Shown piece after piece: positions 4,203 through 15,031 of a stretch of DNA of 42,010 bases. The stretch comes from an uncultured Acidobacteriota bacterium. GTDB taxonomy: Bacteria > Acidobacteriota > Thermoanaerobaculia > UBA5066. Position 1 is the stretch's first letter, and each line of letters starts with the position of its first letter. Under the pieces are notes generated by a model. That model searched no databases, was not told the origin of the DNA, and saw only the letters and a list, made by a program, of their open reading frames with translations. The stretch is taken from NCBI GenBank assembly GCA_937888435.1, contig CALAQS010000326.1, positions 1-42,010 of the forward strand, read 5' to 3'. The position numbers were made by a program, and so were the translations under genes.

Positions 4203-4247
4203 ATTTACGGGCCGCCTGGTTGCCGGATGCTCAGGCTGGAGGCAGCC

Positions 4248-5858
4248 GTGTTCGGCATCCCATTCCACCGGCATCTCGGGTTCAAGCTGACGGCGGCCGC
4301 GGCGGCGGTCTCGCTCGCGACGATTTCGCTATTTGCGTTCCTGTCGATCCGCGCGCAGCGCGCGCATCTCATCAGCGAGGTCGTCCGGGGCGCCGCGCTG
4401 TTTTCGAGCACGATCGCAACAAGCACGCGGGATCTCATGCTCGAGGACCAGCGGCACGGCGCCTACCGGATCATGGAAAGCATCGGGCGCCTCGAGGGCA
4501 TCGAGAAGGTCCGCGTTCTCAACAAAGAGGGCCGCGTCATGTTCTCGACGGATGCGCGCGACATCGGCGGCTCCGTCGACAAGGACGCGGAGGCCTGCAC
4601 CGCGTGTCACGCGGCGGGCCAGCCGCTCGTGGCGCCCACGACGTCCGCACGCAGCCGACTCTTTACGTCGAACGGCCACCGCGTGCTCGGGATGGTGACG
4701 CCAATCTACAACGAACCCGCCTGCGCGACGGCCTCGTGCCACGCGCATCCCCCGGAAAGGCACGTCCTGGGAGTCGTGGACATCGGCATCTCGCTCAAGG
4801 ACATCGACGCGAGCCTGCACACCCAATCCCTGCGGATGGCGGGCGGAGCCCTTCTCGCCGTGATCGCTCTCGCCGCGCTCGTCAACGGCGTCGCACGGCG
4901 CATCGTCTTCCGCCCCGTGGCCGAGCTCGTGGAGGCCACCCAGCGGGTCGGCCACGGCGACTTGTCGGCCACGCTCCCGGTCCGCTCGTCGGACGAGCTC
5001 GGAATCCTCGCGAACTCGTTCAACGAGATGAACGTGTCGCTCGCGAAGACGCGCCGCGAGCTCGAGAACCTCACGGACGACCTCGAGCACCAGGTCGAGG
5101 ACCGCACGGCGGCGCTCAAGAGCGCGCAGGAGGTCCTCGCGCGGAGCGAAAAGCTCGCCTCGCTTGGCCAGCTCTCGGCGTCCATCGCGCACGAGATCAA
5201 CAATCCTCTCGCCGGCATCCTGACATTCGCGCGCCTCATGACGCGCATGCTCGAGGCCGGGCCGCCGGACGAGGCCACCCGCACGGCCTGCCTGAAGAAC
5301 CTGTCCCTCGTCCAGCGCGAGACCGAGCGCTGCACGGTCATCGTGCGCAACCTCCTCGATTTCGCCCGCGCACGCCCTCTCGACCTGCGCATCTTCGACC
5401 CGATGCGCGCGCTCGACGAAGCCCTCTCGCTCGCGCAGCACAAGATGCAGCTCCAGGGCATCACGGTCGTGAGGAAGCTCGAGGGCACGGGCGCCGTGAA
5501 CGCCGACTTTGGACAGCTCCGGCAGGCGTTCATGAACATCCTGCTCAACGCATGCGACGCGATGCCCTCAGGCGGCACGCTGACGCTCGCCGTTCACTTC
5601 TTCTCCGGCAGTCGCGACGTCGAAATCTCCGTCGCCGACACGGGCACCGGGATCGCGCCCGAGCTTCTCTCGCGGATCTTCGACCCCTTCTTCACGACGA
5701 AGGAGAAGGGGACGGGCCTCGGCCTGTCCGTCGTCTACGGCATCGTCGAGAAGCACGGCGGCTCGATGCGGGTGGAGAGCCGCGTCGGACAGGGAACGAC
5801 GATGACGATCCGCCTCCCGCTCGCCGAGGACGGCGTGGCGCGCGCCGCGGCGACGTGA
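4248..5858 (+). CDS. Membrane sensor histidine kinase with periplasmic c-type haem motifs
   Basis: I chose GTG at 4248 because GGAGG sits 5 bases before it; the in-frame ATG at 4227 has no such site. This gives 536 residues. TM1 is at about 16-34, a periplasmic domain at 35-193 and TM2 at 196-216, followed by HAMP (about 217-275), a coiled coil, HisKA with ASIAHEINNPLAG (phospho-acceptor His near 315) and HATPase_c with NILLNACDAM, DTGTGIAPEL and GTGLGLS. The periplasmic domain carries CTACH (117-121) and CATASCH (159-165, a CX4CH variant), so it probably binds one or two covalent c-type haems and senses redox state or a haem ligand. Such haem-PAS kinases and chemoreceptors are known in Geobacter and relatives. 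The stop overlaps the next gene's GTG (GTGA). Likely partner: the NtrC-type regulator at 6402. Confidence 0.9.
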   Translation: MFGIPFHRHLGFKLTAAAAAVSLATISLFAFLSIRAQRAHLISEVVRGAALFSSTIATSTRDLMLEDQRHGAYRIMESIGRLEGIEKVRVLNKEGRVMFSTDARDIGGSVDKDAEACTACHAAGQPLVAPTTSARSRLFTSNGHRVLGMVTPIYNEPACATASCHAHPPERHVLGVVDIGISLKDIDASLHTQSLRMAGGALLAVIALAALVNGVARRIVFRPVAELVEATQRVGHGDLSATLPVRSSDELGILANSFNEMNVSLAKTRRELENLTDDLEHQVEDRTAALKSAQEVLARSEKLASLGQLSASIAHEINNPLAGILTFARLMTRMLEAGPPDEATRTACLKNLSLVQRETERCTVIVRNLLDFARARPLDLRIFDPMRALDEALSLAQHKMQLQGITVVRKLEGTGAVNADFGQLRQAFMNILLNACDAMPSGGTLTLAVHFFSGSRDVEISVADTGTGIAPELLSRIFDPFFTTKEKGTGLGLSVVYGIVEKHGGSMRVESRVGQGTTMTIRLPLAEDGVARAAAT

Positions 5859-6401
5859 GCGAGGTTGCCCTCTGGTGGATCGGAACGGGCGACGCCGACA
5901 ACGGGCTGCTGGAAAGTGTGCGCACGCACGTGGAGCGGGTGTTTCGCGCTGCGGCCCGGCTCGAGCTCGCGGGCTCGAGGCCGGACGACGCGTTCGACGT
6001 GCGTCGCAACCAGCACTCCTCGCATCGCACGCTCCTGTGGCTCGCGTCGCGGCGGCCGCAGCGGGCCGCGCGCATCCTCGGCCTGACGGACGCGGACCTC
6101 TTCATCCCGGTCCTGACGTTCGTCTTCGGCGAGGCGCAGCTCAAGGGCCGTGCAGCCGTCGTGTCCACGGCCCGCCTGACCGGCGCGGGGCTCCCGGGCG
6201 AGTCCGCCCGGCTCGGGGTGCGTCTCAGGACCGAAGCGGTCCACGAGCTCGGGCATACGTTCGGGCTCCTACACTGCCGCGAGTCCCGCTGCGCGATGGC
6301 GCGCTCCTCGACTTTGAAAGATGTGGACTCCAAGCTGCCGGACCTCTGCGAGACGTGCCGGGCCCTCTTCCTCGAAAACGCCGACGAGATCGGAGACTTT
6401 C

Positions 6402-7781
<1,380 letters not shown>

Positions 7782-7797
7782 GAAAGACAACGCCCCG

Positions 7798-7899
7798 TTG
7801 AATAGCTCAACATCTATCGGCGTGCGGACGACAGCTCGTCGAGCGGCACAAACCCTTTCCTGACAAGCACCTGACACCTCATCCGGCCACCCTGCCGGA
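7798..7899 (+). promoter_or_regulatory. Candidate enhancer region of the sigma-54 promoter, with several short repeats
   Basis: Between the regulator gene and the sigma-54 promoter there are four symmetric or repeated elements: GTTGA-N5-TCAAC (about 7798-7812), GCTCG-T-CGAGC (7834-7844), a direct repeat CTGACA-N5-CTGACA with an 11-base period (7860-7876), and TCCGG-N8-CCGGA (7882-7899). The first two lie 70-120 bases before the -12 element, where bacterial enhancer-binding proteins usually bind. Which one is the true site is unknown. Confidence 0.4.
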
Positions 7900-7901
7900 G
7901 G

Positions 7902-7917
7902 TGGCTCGCTCCTTGCG
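7902..7917 (+). promoter_or_regulatory. Sigma-54 (-24/-12) promoter of the redox operon
   Basis: TGGCTCGCTCCTTGCG matches the consensus TGGCACG-N4-TTGCW at all invariant positions: GG of the -24 element, GC of the -12 element and the 10-base gap between them. It deviates only at base 5 (T for A) and base 16. The start site is expected near 7927-7928. It follows directly after a gene for a sigma-54 activator and precedes seven genes in one direction. Confidence 0.8.
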
Positions 7918-7934
7918 CTGTGGCTGGTGTCGCC

Positions 7935-8174
7935 ATGAGAGAAGCCCAGAACACCTGCCCGCTACTCAAGGAAGTCGTGATGCTTTATTGCGACGCCTGC
8001 CCGACGAAAAAAATGCTGCCCCTCGACCACCTCGTATCGGCCCGGCCCTGCCAGGCGATGCGGTACGTGGACTGCCCCCTGTATCAGGAGGCCGTGAGGC
8101 GGCTCGGGACGGACGTCGCGTACGCGGAGTCGCCCGCCGTGGCGGCGGAAGGCTCCCGGAGGGAGGTCCCATGA
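7935..8174 (+). CDS. Small Cys-rich protein, first gene of the sigma-54 operon
   Basis: From ATG 7935 it has 79 residues. Cysteines occur as CPLL, YCDAC (CxxC), RPCQ and DCPLY. With its conserved-looking Lys/Pro segment (PTKKMLPLDHL) this suggests a small metal- or FeS-binding or redox-active cytoplasmic protein; no signal peptide is visible. The start is uncertain. ATG 7935 would lie only about 8 bases after the predicted sigma-54 start site. GTG 7920 lies upstream of that site. ATG 7980 has AAGGAAG 6 bases before it but would drop the first Cys-Pro motif. The stop overlaps the next small gene as ATGA. I do not recognise a named family. Confidence 0.65.
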   Translation: MREAQNTCPLLKEVVMLYCDACPTKKMLPLDHLVSARPCQAMRYVDCPLYQEAVRRLGTDVAYAESPAVAAEGSRREVP

Positions 8175-8257
8175 TCGCCACGGTTCCCCTCGTGCTCCTG
8201 TTCGTTCTCCTCCTGCTCCTCAACGACCGCGCCACGGCCCGCGCGGCCCGGGTCTGA
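8171..8257 (+). CDS. 28-residue single-span membrane peptide
   Basis: Reads MIATVPLVLLFVLLLLLNDR and then a short Ala/Arg tail. It is a single hydrophobic helix with a positive C-terminus, so Nout-Cin orientation is expected. GGGAGG lies 4-5 bases before the ATG, and the ATG overlaps the previous stop (ATGA), which supports translation. Peptides of this size occur as accessory subunits of respiratory membrane complexes. Here it probably associates with the NrfD/HybB subunit encoded two genes downstream; this is inference from position. Confidence 0.6.
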   Translation: MIATVPLVLLFVLLLLLNDRATARAARV

Positions 8258-8269
8258 GGGGGCACCGCG

Positions 8270-9181
8270 ATGAACCTGAATCGCCGCACTCTCTTCAAGC
8301 TCGCAGCAGCGGCCGGCACCGCAGGGGTGGTCGGGGCGGCCGCGAAGTCGCGCGCTTCGGTCGTGCCTGCGGCGCGCAACGCCCGCGGCGTTCTCGTGGA
8401 CACGACACGCTGTGTCGGCTGCCGCGCCTGCGAGGCGGCCTGCGCGGAGGCAAACGCCCTCGCCGGCCCCGAAAAGCCCGGCGACGACACCGTGTTCGCG
8501 TCGAAGCGCTCGACGAGCCCGACGGCCTACACCGTCGTCCAGAAAGGCTCCTTGAAGAGCCCCGCCGGCGAGGACCGCTTCGCCAAGACTCAGTGCATGC
8601 ACTGCGTTCAGCCGGCCTGCGCCTCCGGCTGCGTCGTCAAGGCACTCGAGAAAACCGCGTCCGGGCCGGTCGTCTACCACAAGGACCGCTGCCTCGGCTG
8701 CCGCTACTGCATGATCGCGTGCCCCTTTGGCGTCCCGAAGTACGAATTTTCGAGTGCGACGCCGCTCGTCAAGAAGTGCACGTTCTGCGCGGAGCGCCAG
8801 GCGAAGGGCCTCGTGCCCGCGTGCACGGAGGTCTGCCCGTCGGGCGCGCTCCAGTTCGGCGCGCGCGCCGACCTCCTCGAAGAGGCCAAGGAGCGCATCT
8901 ACCAGAACCCGGAAAAGTACGTCCACAAGGTCTACGGCGAGGACGAAGCGGGCGGCACGAGCTGGCTCTACATCTCCGACGTGCCGTTCGAGTCCCTGAA
9001 GCTTCCCGCCGGCATCGAGAAGAAGTCCTACCCCGAGCTCGCCGACGGCGCGCTTTCGGCCGTGCCCTTCGTCATCACGCTCTGGCCGCCGCTCCTCATG
9101 GGCATGTACACCTTCAGCAAGCGTCGCGACGAGGTCGCGGCGAAAGAGAACGATGGAAGGCAGGAGGAACGCCATGTCTGA
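8270..9181 (+). CDS. Tat-exported four-cluster ferredoxin subunit (HybA/PsrB/DsrO-like)
   Basis: 303 residues. The N-terminus has a twin-arginine signal (NRRTLFK, residues 4-10) followed by an Ala/Gly-rich hydrophobic stretch, so it is exported folded. Four Cys groups follow: CVGCRACEAAC, CMHCVQPACASGC, CLGCRYCMIAC, and CTFC with CTEVC. This is the layout of the electron-transfer subunit in hydrogenase-2, polysulfide reductase and Dsr complexes, expected to hold four [4Fe-4S] clusters. A hydrophobic stretch near residues 262-282 (VPFVITLWPPLLMGMY) could anchor it in the membrane, as in HybA. It ends 8 bases inside the NrfD/HybB gene. Role: passing electrons between the NrfD-type quinone subunit and a periplasmic partner, here most likely the triheme cytochrome. 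No molybdopterin or [NiFe] catalytic subunit is present in the operon. Confidence 0.9.
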   Translation: MNLNRRTLFKLAAAAGTAGVVGAAAKSRASVVPAARNARGVLVDTTRCVGCRACEAACAEANALAGPEKPGDDTVFASKRSTSPTAYTVVQKGSLKSPAGEDRFAKTQCMHCVQPACASGCVVKALEKTASGPVVYHKDRCLGCRYCMIACPFGVPKYEFSSATPLVKKCTFCAERQAKGLVPACTEVCPSGALQFGARADLLEEAKERIYQNPEKYVHKVYGEDEAGGTSWLYISDVPFESLKLPAGIEKKSYPELADGALSAVPFVITLWPPLLMGMYTFSKRRDEVAAKENDGRQEERHV

Positions 9182-10403
9182 GCACGCTCTGAAACCCGCG
9201 CTCTTCGGCGGGCCCTGGATGAGGGAAAACCTCTTCCTCGGGATGCCGTTCCGCGCGTATCTCAAGAGCCTCGTGACACCGGCCAACGCGATCGCGGCGG
9301 CGATTCTCCTCGCGGGCCTCCCCACGATCGCGTACCGGTTCTGGAGGGGGCTCGGCGCTGCGACGAACCTGTCGCAGACGAACCCGTGGGGCATCTGGGT
9401 CGCCTTCGACGTCGTGTGCGGCGTCGCGCTCGCGGCGGGCGGCTACACGGTCGCCTGCGCGGTCTACATCTTCGGCCAGAAAGAGCTGCGGCCGATCCTC
9501 CGCCCCGCGATCCTGACCGGGTTTCTCGGGTACGCGCTCGTCCTCTTCGGGCTCGTCGTGGACCTCGGCCAGCCGTGGCGGCTGCCTTACCAGTTCTTCC
9601 TGACTCCCGGCACGACAGCCGTCATGTACGAGGTCGGCTGGTGCGTCTTTCTATATCTGATGGTGCTCGGGCTCGAGTTCGCGCCCGCCGCGCTCGAGTG
9701 GCTCGGCCTCGTCAAGCTGCGCCGGCTCCTCGGGTCGCTGACGATCGGCATCATCGTCATCGGCGTCACGCTCTCGACGCTCCACCAGTCCTCGCTCGGC
9801 GCCTTCTTCCTCATGACGCCGGGCAAGCTGCACCCGCTCTGGTACTCGCCGTTCCTGCCGATTTTCTTCTTCGTGTCGAGTCTCGCGGCGGGCATCGGCA
9901 TGGTGGTCGTGGAGAGCGCGCTTTCCCACCGCGCGTTCCACGACCGGCTCGACCCGGCCGCCTCCGTGGATCTCGACCGCATCACGCTCTCCCTCGCCAA
10001 GGGCGGCGCGATCGTCCTTTTCGCGTACTTCTTCATCCGGCTGCAGGGTCTCGTTTCGAGCGGCCGCTTCGACCTCCTCGCGACCGGCTGGGGCGCCTGG
10101 TATCTCTTCGAGATGCTCGGCTTCATCCTCCTGCCGTCGTTCGTGTTCGCCTTCGCAGCGCGGCGAAAGAGCGCGAGGCTGGCCCGGATCGCCGGCGTCC
10201 TCACGGTTCTCGGCGTGATCCTCAACCGCTTTAACGTCTCGCTCATCGCCTTCAACTGGAACGTCCCGGACCGCTACGTCCCGAGCGCCGGCGAGGTCAT
10301 CACGTCACTCACGATCGTGACGATCGGCGTCCTGATCTTCCGCTGGATCGTGAATCGCATGCCGGTGGTGAACGAGCACCCCGACTGGCGCGGCGCCCAC
10401 TGA
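9174..10403 (+). CDS. hybB-like: NrfD/HybB-type quinone-interacting membrane subunit
   Basis: ATG 9174 is preceded by AGGAGGAA and overlaps the end of the ferredoxin gene by 8 bases; 409 residues. About ten TM helices. Features of the HybB branch are visible: NPWGIWVAFDVVCGVALAAGG in the early helices, DLGQPWRLPYQF, and a late RFNVSLIAF loop. Proteins of this family exchange electrons between menaquinol or ubiquinone and the ferredoxin subunit and carry no haem of their own. Tight coupling to the four-cluster protein implies a two-subunit module as in Hyb, Qrc, Act or Cbc complexes. Confidence 0.92.
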   Translation: MSEHALKPALFGGPWMRENLFLGMPFRAYLKSLVTPANAIAAAILLAGLPTIAYRFWRGLGAATNLSQTNPWGIWVAFDVVCGVALAAGGYTVACAVYIFGQKELRPILRPAILTGFLGYALVLFGLVVDLGQPWRLPYQFFLTPGTTAVMYEVGWCVFLYLMVLGLEFAPAALEWLGLVKLRRLLGSLTIGIIVIGVTLSTLHQSSLGAFFLMTPGKLHPLWYSPFLPIFFFVSSLAAGIGMVVVESALSHRAFHDRLDPAASVDLDRITLSLAKGGAIVLFAYFFIRLQGLVSSGRFDLLATGWGAWYLFEMLGFILLPSFVFAFAARRKSARLARIAGVLTVLGVILNRFNVSLIAFNWNVPDRYVPSAGEVITSLTIVTIGVLIFRWIVNRMPVVNEHPDWRGAH

Positions 10404-10420: not shown

Positions 10421-11089
10421 ATGAACGAATACCAGCTCCTCAACCCGTACACGGCGAAGGCCCTGGAATACGCCCTCGCGATCTCATACCTCCTCCTCTT
10501 CATCCCCTTCTGGCGCTTCGTCCAGGGGGAGGCGGTTCCGGCGCACGCCCTCGGCTTCGGCTGGTTCCAGGTTCCGAACGGCGTCCATCTGCACGCCGGC
10601 CACGCCTGGGCGCGCCCGGAGGGCGGCGCCGTGGAGGTCGGCCTCGACGACTTCGCCCACAAGCTCGTGGGCCCGCTCGAGACGGTGCGTTTTCCCGAGA
10701 TCGGCGCGCCGGTGAGGCAGGGCCAGAAGGCCTTCACGATCGTGGCCGGCGGCCAGCCGCTCGACGTGCTCTCGCCGGTCGACGGCCACGTCATCGCGTT
10801 GAACGAAGCCGTTCGCGCGCATCCGGCCGACGCGCTGCGCGACCCATACGGTGCCGGCTGGCTCATGAAGGTCGAGCCGCGCTGGCTGACCGGCAACCTC
10901 AAGAACCTCTTCTCGGGCGACGCGGCCCGCCGGTTCCTCGACGCCGCGGCGGGGAAGCTCGCCCAACGCCTCACGCCGCAACTCGGCGTCGTATTGCAGG
11001 ACGGCGGAACGCCGGTGCACGGCATCGCGCGAGCTCTCGACGAGGACCACTGGGACGAGCTGGCCCGGCGGTTCCTCGAGGGAAAGTGA
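10421..11089 (+). CDS. Membrane-anchored GcvH-like protein without the lipoyl lysine (1)
   Basis: 222 residues with SD GAGAGGGAG before ATG 10421. One TM at about 14-34 is followed by a GcvH-like fold: LHAGHAWARPEGGAVEVGLDDFA corresponds to the start of glycine-cleavage H protein, and DVLSPVDGHVIALN to its lipoyl hairpin. In true H protein the hairpin contains the lipoylated Lys eight residues before the Pro of xPV. Here that position is Gly in AGGQPLDVLSPV, with no Lys nearby, so lipoylation is not expected. No glycine-cleavage gene is near. The protein is probably a structural or assembly part of the respiratory module; topology (soluble part in cytoplasm or periplasm) is undecided. A second copy is encoded two genes downstream. 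Confidence 0.75.
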   Translation: MNEYQLLNPYTAKALEYALAISYLLLFIPFWRFVQGEAVPAHALGFGWFQVPNGVHLHAGHAWARPEGGAVEVGLDDFAHKLVGPLETVRFPEIGAPVRQGQKAFTIVAGGQPLDVLSPVDGHVIALNEAVRAHPADALRDPYGAGWLMKVEPRWLTGNLKNLFSGDAARRFLDAAAGKLAQRLTPQLGVVLQDGGTPVHGIARALDEDHWDELARRFLEGK

Positions 11090-11099
11090 GGCGGCCGTC

Positions 11100-11450
11100 A
11101 TGAGGCATCTCCGACTCTTCGCCATCCTTCTGACGCTCGGGTTGACCGGGGCGGTTCTCCCGGCCAGCCTCCCGCGCCTGCCGAACGACCGCGCTCTCCC
11201 ACAGGGAACGGAGAGCCCGGGCGTCGTGACGTTCCGCCACTCGTCGCACGTCGACCAAGCGAAGCCCGACTGCACGACCTGCCACCCGGCGCTGTTCCCG
11301 ATCCTCCCCCGTTCCGAGGCCCAGGCGGGCCCCCGACTCCTGCACAAGGACATGGAAAAGGGCGTCGCCTGCGGCAAGTGCCACGACGGCAAGAGCGCGC
11401 ATGGATTCGACGATTGCGCCACGTGCCACGTCGTTCCGAAAGAGAGGTGA
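11100..11450 (+). CDS. Triheme c7-type cytochrome, periplasmic
   Basis: 116 residues with an N-terminal signal sequence or anchor (hydrophobic residues 5-22). Three CxxCH motifs occur: CTTCH (58-62), CGKCH (91-95) and CATCH (106-110). Extra His at 47, 50, 82 and 101 can act as sixth ligands, so bis-His low-potential haems are expected. Motif spacing and size fit the cytochrome c3/c7 class (PF14522-like). It probably accepts electrons from the ferredoxin subunit, or donates to it, in the periplasm. It lies 10 bases after the first GcvH-like gene and 5 bases before the second. Confidence 0.9.
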   Translation: MRHLRLFAILLTLGLTGAVLPASLPRLPNDRALPQGTESPGVVTFRHSSHVDQAKPDCTTCHPALFPILPRSEAQAGPRLLHKDMEKGVACGKCHDGKSAHGFDDCATCHVVPKER

Positions 11451-11455
11451 GCATC

Positions 11456-12166
11456 ATGGAAGCTCTCTTGATGTTTTTGCAGGGAGCCATCATCTTCGTG
11501 GCGGGTCTCCTCATCCGCCTTTTGCTTCTCATCGCCTTCGTCGCCGTCGCCCTCGTGCCCATCCTCGCGGGGTGGGGTCTCTATCGCCTGGCTGAGTCGG
11601 CGATCCGACGGCTCAGGGCACGCCGACTCGGCCTCGTGGAAGTCGACGGCCTGGTTCTCGCCGAGCGCCGCCGTTACACGCCCGCCCACGCGTGGCTGGA
11701 AGAGACCGGCGGCCGCCTGCGCGTGGGTCTCGACGGTCTCGCCGGACACCTCCTTCACGGCGTCACCGCCATCCAGCTTCCGCAGCCGGGCAGCATGCTG
11801 GCCGCAGGGCGCGCGGCCGTGACGGTCGCGTGCGGCGCGCGGACGGCGATCATCCCCTCACCCGTGACGGGCACGGTGGTGGCCGTGAACAGCGCCGTCT
11901 CGCGCCACCCGTCCCTCGTGCTCTCCTCGCCTTACGGGAGAGGCTGGCTCTTCTCGGTGCGGCCGGCCTCGGACACGTACCGCAGCTTCCCGACGGGCGC
12001 GGTGGCGCGCGCCTGGTTCCACGCCGATGAGACGCGGCTCGCGCATTTCCTCGAAGGCGAGCTCGGCCTCGCGGCGGCGGACGGCGGCGAGCTCGTCCTG
12101 CCTCCCCCGGCCCTGCTATCCGAAGATCAGTGGCACCGCGCCGTGTCCTCCTTCCTCGAGTCCTGA
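11456..12166 (+). CDS. Membrane-anchored GcvH-like protein without the lipoyl lysine (2)
   Basis: ATG 11456 with GAGAGG upstream; 236 residues. The N-terminus is strongly hydrophobic (about residues 3-47), enough for two TM helices or a re-entrant hairpin. A GcvH-like domain follows: YTPAHAWLEETGGRLRVGLD, then IIPSPVTGTVVAVN as the lipoyl hairpin. The Lys position is occupied by Ala, in the stretch CGARTAIIPSPV, so it cannot be lipoylated in the usual way. It is a diverged paralogue of the protein at 10421. It is the last gene of the sigma-54 operon, 23 bases before the terminator stem. Function inferred only from context: scaffold or maturation partner of the ferredoxin/NrfD/cytochrome complex. 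Confidence 0.75.
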   Translation: MEALLMFLQGAIIFVAGLLIRLLLLIAFVAVALVPILAGWGLYRLAESAIRRLRARRLGLVEVDGLVLAERRRYTPAHAWLEETGGRLRVGLDGLAGHLLHGVTAIQLPQPGSMLAAGRAAVTVACGARTAIIPSPVTGTVVAVNSAVSRHPSLVLSSPYGRGWLFSVRPASDTYRSFPTGAVARAWFHADETRLAHFLEGELGLAAADGGELVLPPPALLSEDQWHRAVSSFLES

Positions 12167-12257: not shown

Positions 12258-13142
12258 ATGCGCCGATCCACCCTCGTCCTCGCGCTCGTCCTTTTCGCGG
12301 GTTGCGGCAAGAATCCCGCCGCTCCTGCTGCCCGCGTGGCGGGCCCCGACTCTCCCGCTCACGGGGCCGCGCTCGAAGCTTCGGCTCCGGCCGCCGTCAT
12401 CCCCCAAGCGCCTCAGCCCGCTCTCGCTACCGTGTCGGGAGTCGTCGAGGAGACGCTTGACGCCTCCGACTACACGTATATGCGGCTGAAGACCGACGGC
12501 AGTGAGATCTGGGCCGCCGTCACGAAGACGTCCGTGAAGAAGGGCGACCGGGTCACCGTCGCGAACGCGATGTCGATGGACGGCTTCGAGAGCAAGACGC
12601 TGAACCGGAAATTCGAGCACATCGTCTTCGGCAACCTCGGCGGCGGAACGGCCGGCGCTCTGTCGGCTGGCGCGCCCCCCGCGCCGGTCTCGGCGCACGG
12701 CTCCGCGTCCGAAGCCCAGCCGCGCTCCCAAATGGCCGCGCAGCACGCGGCGGTGGCGGGCGGCCCGGCGGATGCCGGTGACGTCGTGGTCGCGAAGGCC
12801 GAAGGCAAGGACGCGCGCACGGTGGCGCAGATCTTTGCGGAGCGCCTTTCGCTTAAGGACAAGACCGTGTTCGTGCGCGGCAAGGTCGTGAAGGCGAACA
12901 CCTCGATCATGGGCCGGAACTGGATTCACATTCGCGACGGCTCCGGTTCACGTGAAAAGAAGGACGACGACCTGACGGTGACGACTAAAGACGGCGCGGC
13001 CGTCGGCGACATCGTGGTCGCAAAGGGCGTCGTTCATGTCGACCGCGACTTCGGCGCCGGCTACTCGTACCCGGTCGTCCTGGAGGACGCGAAGATCACG
13101 CGCGAGCCGGCCTCGACGCGGGCGGACGCGACGCTAAGGTGA
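12258..13142 (+). CDS. OB-fold lipoprotein, two repeats
   Basis: ATG 12258 has AAGGAGA 8 bases upstream; 294 residues. The N-terminus is a lipoprotein signal (LVLFAGC, Cys near residue 16). An Ala/Pro-rich stretch follows, then two beta-rich units: about 60-125 ([18 protein letters not shown] ... KGDRVTV) and 200-285 ([19 protein letters not shown], then GDIVVAKG). Both look like OB folds of the kind found in NrfJ/YgiW-type or nucleic-acid-binding-domain periplasmic proteins. The linker (130-185) is Ala/Gly/Pro-rich. Its stop overlaps the GTG of the aromatic-biosynthesis fusion gene, but a functional link is not obvious. Ligand unknown. Confidence 0.65.
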
Positions 13143-15031
13143 CGCCGCGCGGGGCGGAGCTCGCGGGCTATCAGGGGCAGCCCGGCTCCTTCTCAGCCCG
13201 CGCGGCGGCGCGTTGCGGGAAGCCGGTGGCCTTCCCCACCTTCGAACGCACGCTGCGCGCGCTCCTCGCCGGAGAGATCGCGTGCGCCGTGCTGCCCGCG
13301 GTCAACCGCGTGGACGGGCCGATCCTCGAGTCCCTGGACGCGCTCGCCCGCTCGCTGGCAGAGCTGGAGTCCGCGATCGCCGTCGAGGCCGAGATCGAAG
13401 TGCCCGTGAGGCTCGTTCTCGCCGCGCCAGAGGGCCTCGCGCTCGAGAGCGTGCGCGAGGTCCATTCCCAGGCCGCGGTGCTCAGGCAGTGCCGCCATCT
13501 CCTCGCGCGCCTCGACGCGATTCCGATCGACACGCACGACACGGCGTACGCGGCGTTTCGCGTGAAGGAGGCGGGAGGGCCTCGGGCAGCCGTCTGCTCG
13601 GAGGAGGCGGCGCTCGAGGCCGGCCTTCTCATTCTCGAGGAAGACGTGTCGGACGTGCGCCCGAACACGACGCGCTTCTGGCGACTGGCCCGCGCCGGGG
13701 CGACCGCGGATGCGGTGCCGGGGGATGACGTCGCGCCCGACTCTTCGGCGCCGCGCGTTGTTTTCTACGCGGGCGTGCGGGCATCGTCGGCCCTCGCGGA
13801 AGCGGGCGCCGAGCTGCTCTCGCTGCCGGGCACACCGGGCGATCCGGTCCGCGGCTTCGCGGTCGTGCCCGAGAAGAACGTCGCGCGCGCGGCGGCGGGT
13901 ACGGGCCGGCCCGCGGCAGGAGAGCGCGTGATCTGGCTCGGGCCCGCCCCGGAGTTCGTGCGTCCACCCCGGATGCGCGACCTCCCGAAGGTGACCCAGG
14001 TGCGCGAGCCGAGCATCGTCGCCGTTGGGCCCTTCGTCGTCGGCGGAGGCCACCGCGCCGTGATTGCGGGGCCGTGCGCGGTCGAATCGCCCGAGCAGGT
14101 CGCGCGGCTCGCGCGCGCCGTGGCGCGCGCCGGCGCGACCGCGCTCCGCGGCGGCGTCTTCAAGCCGCGCACGTCCCCCTATTCGTTCCAGGGGCATGGC
14201 CTCGAAGCTCTCGGCTGGCTGAAGGACGCGGGAGACGCGGCGGGACTCCCGATCGTGACGGAAGTGATGGCGCCCGCGCAGGTCGTCCCGGTGGCCGAGC
14301 GGGTCGACGTGCTGCAGATCGGCGCGCGGAACTGCCAGAACTACGACCTCCTGAAGGAAGCGGGCAGAAGCTCCCGCCCCGTCTTTCTGAAACGCGGGTT
14401 CGGAACGACCGTCGAGGAGTGGCTCTCCTCGGCCGAGTACCTGCTCGACGCGGGCTGCAAGAACGTGATCCTCTGCGAGCGTGGCATCCGCACGTTCGAG
14501 AAGGCGACGCGCGGGACACTCGACCTCGGCGGCCTCCTCGTAGCGCGCAGCCTCACGCATCTCCCGCTCTTCGCGGATCCCTCGCATGCCGCGGGCCGGC
14601 GCGACCTCGTGCCGGGTCTCGCGCGCGCGGCGTGGGGCGCGGGTGTGGACGGACTCATGATCGAGGTCCACGATGCCCCCGAGTCCGCGCTCTCCGACGG
14701 GCCGCAGGCTCTTTTACCCGAGGATCTCGAGGAGCTGCTCGACGAATTCGGCATCCTGCCCGGCGCGAGCGGCTCGGTGGAGAGGATCCGGCGCGCGATC
14801 GACGTCGTGGACGGCGGCATCGCGCGGCTCGCGGCGCAGAGACTCGAGCTGGCGCGGCGCGTGGGCGCCGTCAAGAAGGCCTCCGGCCGCCCGATTCGCG
14901 ACGAGGCGCGCGAGGCGAGCGTGCGTGCGCGTTTCGCCGAGGCGCTCGGAGGAGACACCCTGGGCGCGACGCGGCTCGCGGACACGCTCATAGACCTCGC
15001 TTTGGAGGCGGAGAAGCCCGGCGACGCGTGA
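13139..15031 (+). CDS. Three-domain fusion: prephenate dehydratase - DAHP synthase - chorismate mutase
   Basis: GTG 13139 overlaps the upstream stop; 630 residues. Domain 1 (about 8-185) is prephenate-dehydratase-like: [20 protein letters not shown], then NTTRFW containing the catalytic Thr-Arg-Phe. Its usual PxENS loop reads PAVNR, so the conserved Glu is lost. A linker (190-295) has no clear ACT domain. Domain 2 (about 300-535) is a type I-beta (AroF/KDO8P-like) DAHP synthase: [58 protein letters not shown] and SDGPQ. Expected metal ligands are C313, H483, E509 and D520. Domain 3 (about 545-625) is an AroQ chorismate mutase with [23 protein letters not shown] and [16 protein letters not shown] synthase-chorismate mutase and chorismate mutase-prephenate dehydratase fusions are known; all three in this order is unusual. 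It could couple shikimate-pathway entry to phenylalanine synthesis. Confidence 0.9.

Follow-up and report, generated by a model that had tools for sequence, protein, structure and literature searches.

Between an NtrC-type regulator gene and a same-strand operon of electron-transfer genes, the window (the whole stretch of DNA analysed here, 42,010 bp) carries a sequence resembling a sigma-54 promoter, which raises the question of whether this site drives the operon and which activator would act on it. We favour, with a probability of about 0.92, the reading that a promoter at 7902–7917 drives the operon from 7935 and that the NtrC encoded upstream binds a pair of dyads at 7777–7811. The computed basis for this reading consists of sequence elements, their conservation, their co-occurrence with genes and the assignment of protein domains.

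The sigma-54 site and the dyads upstream of it

The sigma-54 consensus is TGGCACGN4TTGCW. At 7902–7917 on the forward strand the window reads TGGCTCGCTCCTTGCG, exactly where the initial annotation had placed a near-consensus site, and the site does keep GG and GC at the -24/-12 spacing, with ten bases between them and only two mismatches, namely A to T at position 5 and a G as last base. On both strands of the 42-kb window, it is the only site with GG/GC and at most two mismatches. The proposed placement between an NtrC-type gene and a same-strand operon was likewise borne out, the stop codon of ntrC lying at 7779–7781 and the first ATG of the operon at 7935. A scan of 7600–8300 found no sigma-70-like promoter, and the genome has one rpoN-type gene (PF04552, 215.5 bits).

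Taken alone, the -24/-12 motif is weak evidence, since TGGCNCGN4TTGC is not enriched genome-wide (7 occurrences in the 3.7-Mb genome versus 8 for the reversed control). Loose matching to the consensus, with up to three mismatches and no GG/GC rule, is uninformative, because the window holds 34 such matches when 43 are expected from shuffles. From the genome density, 1.4e-4 occurrences of TGGCNCGN4TTGC are expected on one strand of the 153-bp gap, and the probability of any GG/GC site with at most two mismatches in the gap is about 0.009 in first-order random sequences of the same composition.

The initial annotation did not include a second set of elements upstream of the promoter. Two predicted activating dyads on the forward strand, GTTGAGAAAGACAAC at 7777–7791, which overlaps the end of ntrC, and GTTGAATAGCTCAAC at 7797–7811, have the form GTTGA-N5-TCAAC; they are set 20 bp apart and precede the -24 element by about 90 bp. 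No perfect match to this form exists in the genome other than the second dyad, and the pair at 7777–7811 is the only tandem copy under the strict pattern. By their sequence and conservation the dyads provide the putative upstream enhancer that goes with an AAA+ activator, and we consider the pair a probable enhancer; since the two dyads are 20 bp apart, two NtrC dimers would sit on one face of the DNA. The NtrC-type gene just upstream had been named as the likely activator, and the tandem dyads are stronger evidence than the promoter motif that the adjacent NtrC would act here. A reading of the dyads as an FNR/CRP-type site with TTGA-N6-TCAA arm spacing was rejected, the arms of the window dyads being separated by N5.

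Seven genomes of one family were aligned, including the window's own; they carry the genus labels g1, g2, g3 and g6, and four of them belong to a single genus. Enhancer and promoter recur in all seven; in the alignment, it is the dyads and the -24/-12 element that stand out as conserved blocks. The promoter being kept in place in this way, together with the low number expected in the gap, upholds the earlier judgement that chance is unlikely. In each of the seven, two dyads are found 20 bp apart, with a variable distance (100–146 bp) from the start of dyad 1 to the start of the -24 element, and the -24/-12 site lies 30–33 bp before the first ATG, so that the predicted leader is very short; in the window, a transcript starting near 7927 would reach the ATG at 7935 after only about 8 nt. 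Longer leaders were seen in several more distant loci. In genomes G001–G003 dyad 1 is degenerate, which counts against the favoured reading, and a TTGACA-like stretch is present. Altogether, the site at 7902–7917 is very probably a sigma-54 promoter.

The operon and its signalling genes

The operon opens with a small Cys-rich protein (CPxLKEVVM..., 7935–8174) that has no Pfam or NCBIfam match. It continues on the same forward strand with an Fe-S protein (8270–9181) and an NrfD-family membrane protein (9153–10403), whose best NCBIfam matches, HmcB and HmcC, stay below the equivalog cut-offs (351 of 420 and 509 of 550 bits, respectively), and with three genes assigned by profile matches: a first GcvH-like protein (10421–11089), a c7-type triheme cytochrome (11100–11450) and a second GcvH-like protein (11456–12166). 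With the hexadecaheme HmcA model, the c7 protein of the operon reaches 14.9, where the cut-off is 400. From sequence, the combination of Fe-S, NrfD, GcvH-like and triheme c7 proteins suggests a membrane quinone-cytochrome oxidoreductase. Both GcvH-like proteins have hydrophobic N-termini and, by eye, seemingly lack the lipoyl-lysine. Before the Fe-S gene, an ORF for a hydrophobic peptide of 28 aa (8171–8257, forward strand) overlaps the preceding stop codon; it has homologs in loci L048–L050, the L050 copy being full-length and 79% identical and those of L048 and L049 partial. Farther along the window, a prephenate dehydratase / DAHP synthase / chorismate mutase fusion is encoded at 13139–15031.

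Upstream, the forward-strand ntrC gene (6402–7781) encodes a receiver, a sigma-54 AAA+ domain and a Fis-type HTH, with PF00072, PF00158 and PF02954 all above their cut-offs. Its activator loop reads GSFTGA and not GAFTGA, which counts against the favoured reading. The HTH, with IDRVTLY, is kept among NtrC homologs wherever the dyads are kept. Genomes G005, G008 and G010 encode their nearest NtrC homolog (74–76% identity) elsewhere and not beside the operon; therefore, adjacency alone cannot assign the regulator. This arrangement fits action in trans, and it is at the same time where the naming of the regulator is weakest.

The same cluster encodes a sensor histidine kinase (4227–5858, forward strand), in which Pfam, motifs and a predicted fold indicate a periplasmic Cache-like domain, HAMP, HisKA and HATPase. 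The predicted Cache domain carries CxxCH at residues 124–128 and CX4CH at residues 166–172; both are invariant in the 22 aligned members of the kinase family and occur together in 60 of 68 kinase frames (five loci counted twice), the other eight being, judged by length, cut frames or other kinases. The sensor region was folded alone, since a full-length model matched mainly kinase cores, and is predicted to adopt a Cache fold (mean pLDDT 80.3). Its closest structure among the matches listed is the WalK Cache domain (Z 15.6, 2.0 Å over 130 residues). Foldseek also matched the sensor of GSU0935 (E 8.4e-5), described as heme-bearing in PMC12889525; this sensor is not among the 50 VIA matches listed. 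Based on the motifs and the modelled fold, the kinase is probably a heme sensor, and we infer both heme attachment and the ligand.

Between the kinase gene and ntrC, with an overlap at the stop of the former and at the start of the latter, lies a forward-strand gene for an archaemetzincin-like metalloprotease of Pfam family M54 (5855–6439; PF07998, 62.1 bits against a cut-off of 24.4). The profile match and the metal motif together place it in this family; the motif HExxHxxGxxHC..C..M..CxxC is complete in 37 of the 39 archaemetzincin copies of the loci described below. To our knowledge, the protease family has no known role in bacteria. No paper joining an archaemetzincin with a histidine kinase was found among the matches listed, and a second literature search gave no mention of any archaemetzincin among the 20 of 317 matches listed.

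Recurrence of the module and alternative readings

Across 148 genomes of the class, the strict tandem pattern has 11 occurrences, spread over 10 genomes, and the reversed control has 0. Nine of the 11 adjoin the electron-transfer gene family and come with sigma-54 sites (G000, G008, G010 twice, G035, G041, G125, G126 and G127); in G125, G126 and G127 the dyads stand before GcvH-like genes and the sigma-54 sites have one mismatch. The tandem dyads of G006 (contig C47) adjoin another NtrC unit, and the tandem pattern of G070, with no sigma-54 site at the expected place, was set aside unexplained. Dyads and promoter lie before the kinase gene instead in G035, G041 and G059 (sigma-54 sites with one to two mismatches), and therefore the regulator would belong to the controlled unit there. 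In G032, a sigma-54 site with one mismatch is accompanied by dyad-like stretches seen by eye, and the scan found no such pair.

Two side observations concern related clusters. At locus L069 (G010:C57), one cluster contains two more modules of dyads plus sigma-54 site, one ahead of the small Cys-rich gene and the other ahead of the GcvH-like genes. Besides, a second NtrC unit is present in L047 (G000:C146, 5551–5937) and L163 (G006:C47); it too has tandem dyads and a sigma-54 site, and is predicted to drive a small repeat-rich protein.

A wider set of 80 named loci, the best 80 of 551 from an alignment of the iron-sulfur protein, spans Acidobacteriota, Myxococcota (Anaeromyxobacter), Deltaproteobacteria, Nitrospinae and others. 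Most of these loci are contigs of uncultured genomes and not independent, and five of the 80 are contigs of class genomes already used, so that the two sets are not fully independent of each other. Tandem dyads were found in 23 of these best 80 of 551 loci, and in 16 of them a sigma-54 site follows 45–265 bp downstream. A site was detected, for example, in the Anaeromyxobacter loci L090, L098 and L100. The 17 module matches in the 80 loci all share the strand of the operon. With 29 permuted half-sites there were zero modules, and -24/-12 spacings altered to N2, N3, N5 and N6 gave 0, 0, 0 and 1, respectively. In the 27 loci with the small Cys-rich gene, a search of up to 400 bp of the gap between NtrC and the first gene, which allowed three mismatches with GG/GC and was thus looser than the module test, found a sigma-54 site in 21, when 1.8 were expected from a block shuffle (not an exact dinucleotide shuffle). 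Tandem dyads accompany 20 of the 44 loci with NtrC and 3 of the 36 without (Fisher p = 3.7e-4), and the archaemetzincin gene lies beside NtrC in 38 of the 44 and occurs in one of the 36. The sigma-54 site was not found in 6 of the 27 loci, nor tandem dyads in 24 of the 44 NtrC-bearing loci at the thresholds used, and both results count against the favoured reading. Judged from these sequences, the predicted module of dyads and promoter recurs before homologous electron-transfer genes in several bacterial phyla.

These results bear directly on the other explanations of the locus. A -24/-12 match arising by chance in G+C-rich DNA would agree with a genome count no higher than that of the reversed control and with loose matches in the window below expectation; yet the small number expected in the gap, the retention of the site in all seven relatives, its excess in the loci with the small Cys-rich gene and the loss of the module upon changed spacing or half-sites make this reading highly improbable. 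A real promoter could also be activated by another enhancer-binding protein, given the 22 PF00158 matches in the genome (four of them weak) and the position of the nearest NtrC homolog away from the operon in G005, G008 and G010. We regard such an activator as unlikely, in that the dyads co-occur with the family of the upstream NtrC and have no other perfect or tandem copy in the genome, and in that this NtrC family retains its HTH wherever the dyads are kept.

The consensus of FNR/CRP-type sites is TTGAT-N4-ATCAA, and the dyads might belong to this type, with the operon run by another sigma factor. The TTGA...TCAA half-sites, the redox nature of the operon and the TTGACA-like stretch in G001–G003 speak for it. 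Tandem pairs are spaced by N5 in 23 of the 80 loci however, and by N6 in only 3, while the dyads are coupled to sigma-54 sites and the region around the promoter lacks a sigma-70-like one, so that this too appears very unlikely.

Returning to NtrC and RpoN, we propose that the kinase of the same cluster probably sets the phosphorylation of NtrC through heme bound covalently in the predicted Cache domain; the signal would therefore be redox state or a ligand that the heme binds, for instance NO. Dyad-bound NtrC would contact the RpoN-polymerase by looping across about 90 bp, and ATP-dependent opening would follow. More tentatively, and as a possibility that we hold to be the less probable outcome, a kinase whose single Cache domain carries two sites for covalent heme, the archaemetzincin and NtrC might form one conserved cross-phyla signalling unit. 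In this unit the protease would control how abundant or how active the kinase, NtrC or a target is, and the unit would switch an Hmc-like quinone-cytochrome complex via the enhancer-promoter module.

Comparison with known systems

For a respiratory gene family that is widespread but little described, and that belongs mostly to uncultured bacteria, the analysis predicts a regulator, a DNA site and a promoter, and it connects the family with a probable heme-based signal. The dyads can serve as a marker for finding further targets, and the recurring archaemetzincin gene gives its protease family a testable biological setting. No paper on the dyad-promoter module was found among the matches listed by a literature search whose coverage lies mostly outside subscription journals.

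Several described systems share parts of the arrangement. In the Desulfovibrio vulgaris sigma-54 regulome (PMC4641369), predicted enhancer sites are likewise paired with sigma-54 promoters, and most promoters lie less than 100 nt from the closest enhancer site; a term search of its main text returned no mention of hmc or NrfD. For Geobacter sulfurreducens, the study of the RpoN regulon (PMC2725144) links RpoN to cytochrome expression, as proposed here, and the same kind of search of its main text returned neither hybA nor NrfD. Among curated models, the Fe-S and NrfD proteins best match HmcB and HmcC of the Hmc transmembrane complex; in contrast to this complex, they fall below the equivalog cut-offs, the c7 protein fails the 16-heme HmcA model and GcvH-like proteins are present.

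The kinase resembles the sCache_heme sensors (DUF3365/Tll0287), for which a 2026 preprint (PMC12889525) describes CxxCH Cache domains with NO-binding behaviour when fused to signalling parts. It has in common with them a Cache fold, here predicted, with CxxCH inside it (22 of 22 members), HAMP and a kinase, and differs by its second motif, CX4CH, about 42 residues further on. A search at E up to 1 listed no PF11845 match for the sensor region of the kinase, and for the 22 members PF11845 is not among the 25 of 35 families listed.

Classical NtrC/RpoN units have in common with this locus the -24/-12 GG/GC element, paired upstream dyads and an adjacent response-regulator activator, whereas the dyad sequence, the respiratory-complex target and the archaemetzincin in the regulator cluster are different here. 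The predicted promoter itself is a further member of an already known promoter type, while a regulator with heme motifs and a protease sets the whole arrangement apart as a variant of the NtrC/RpoN type.
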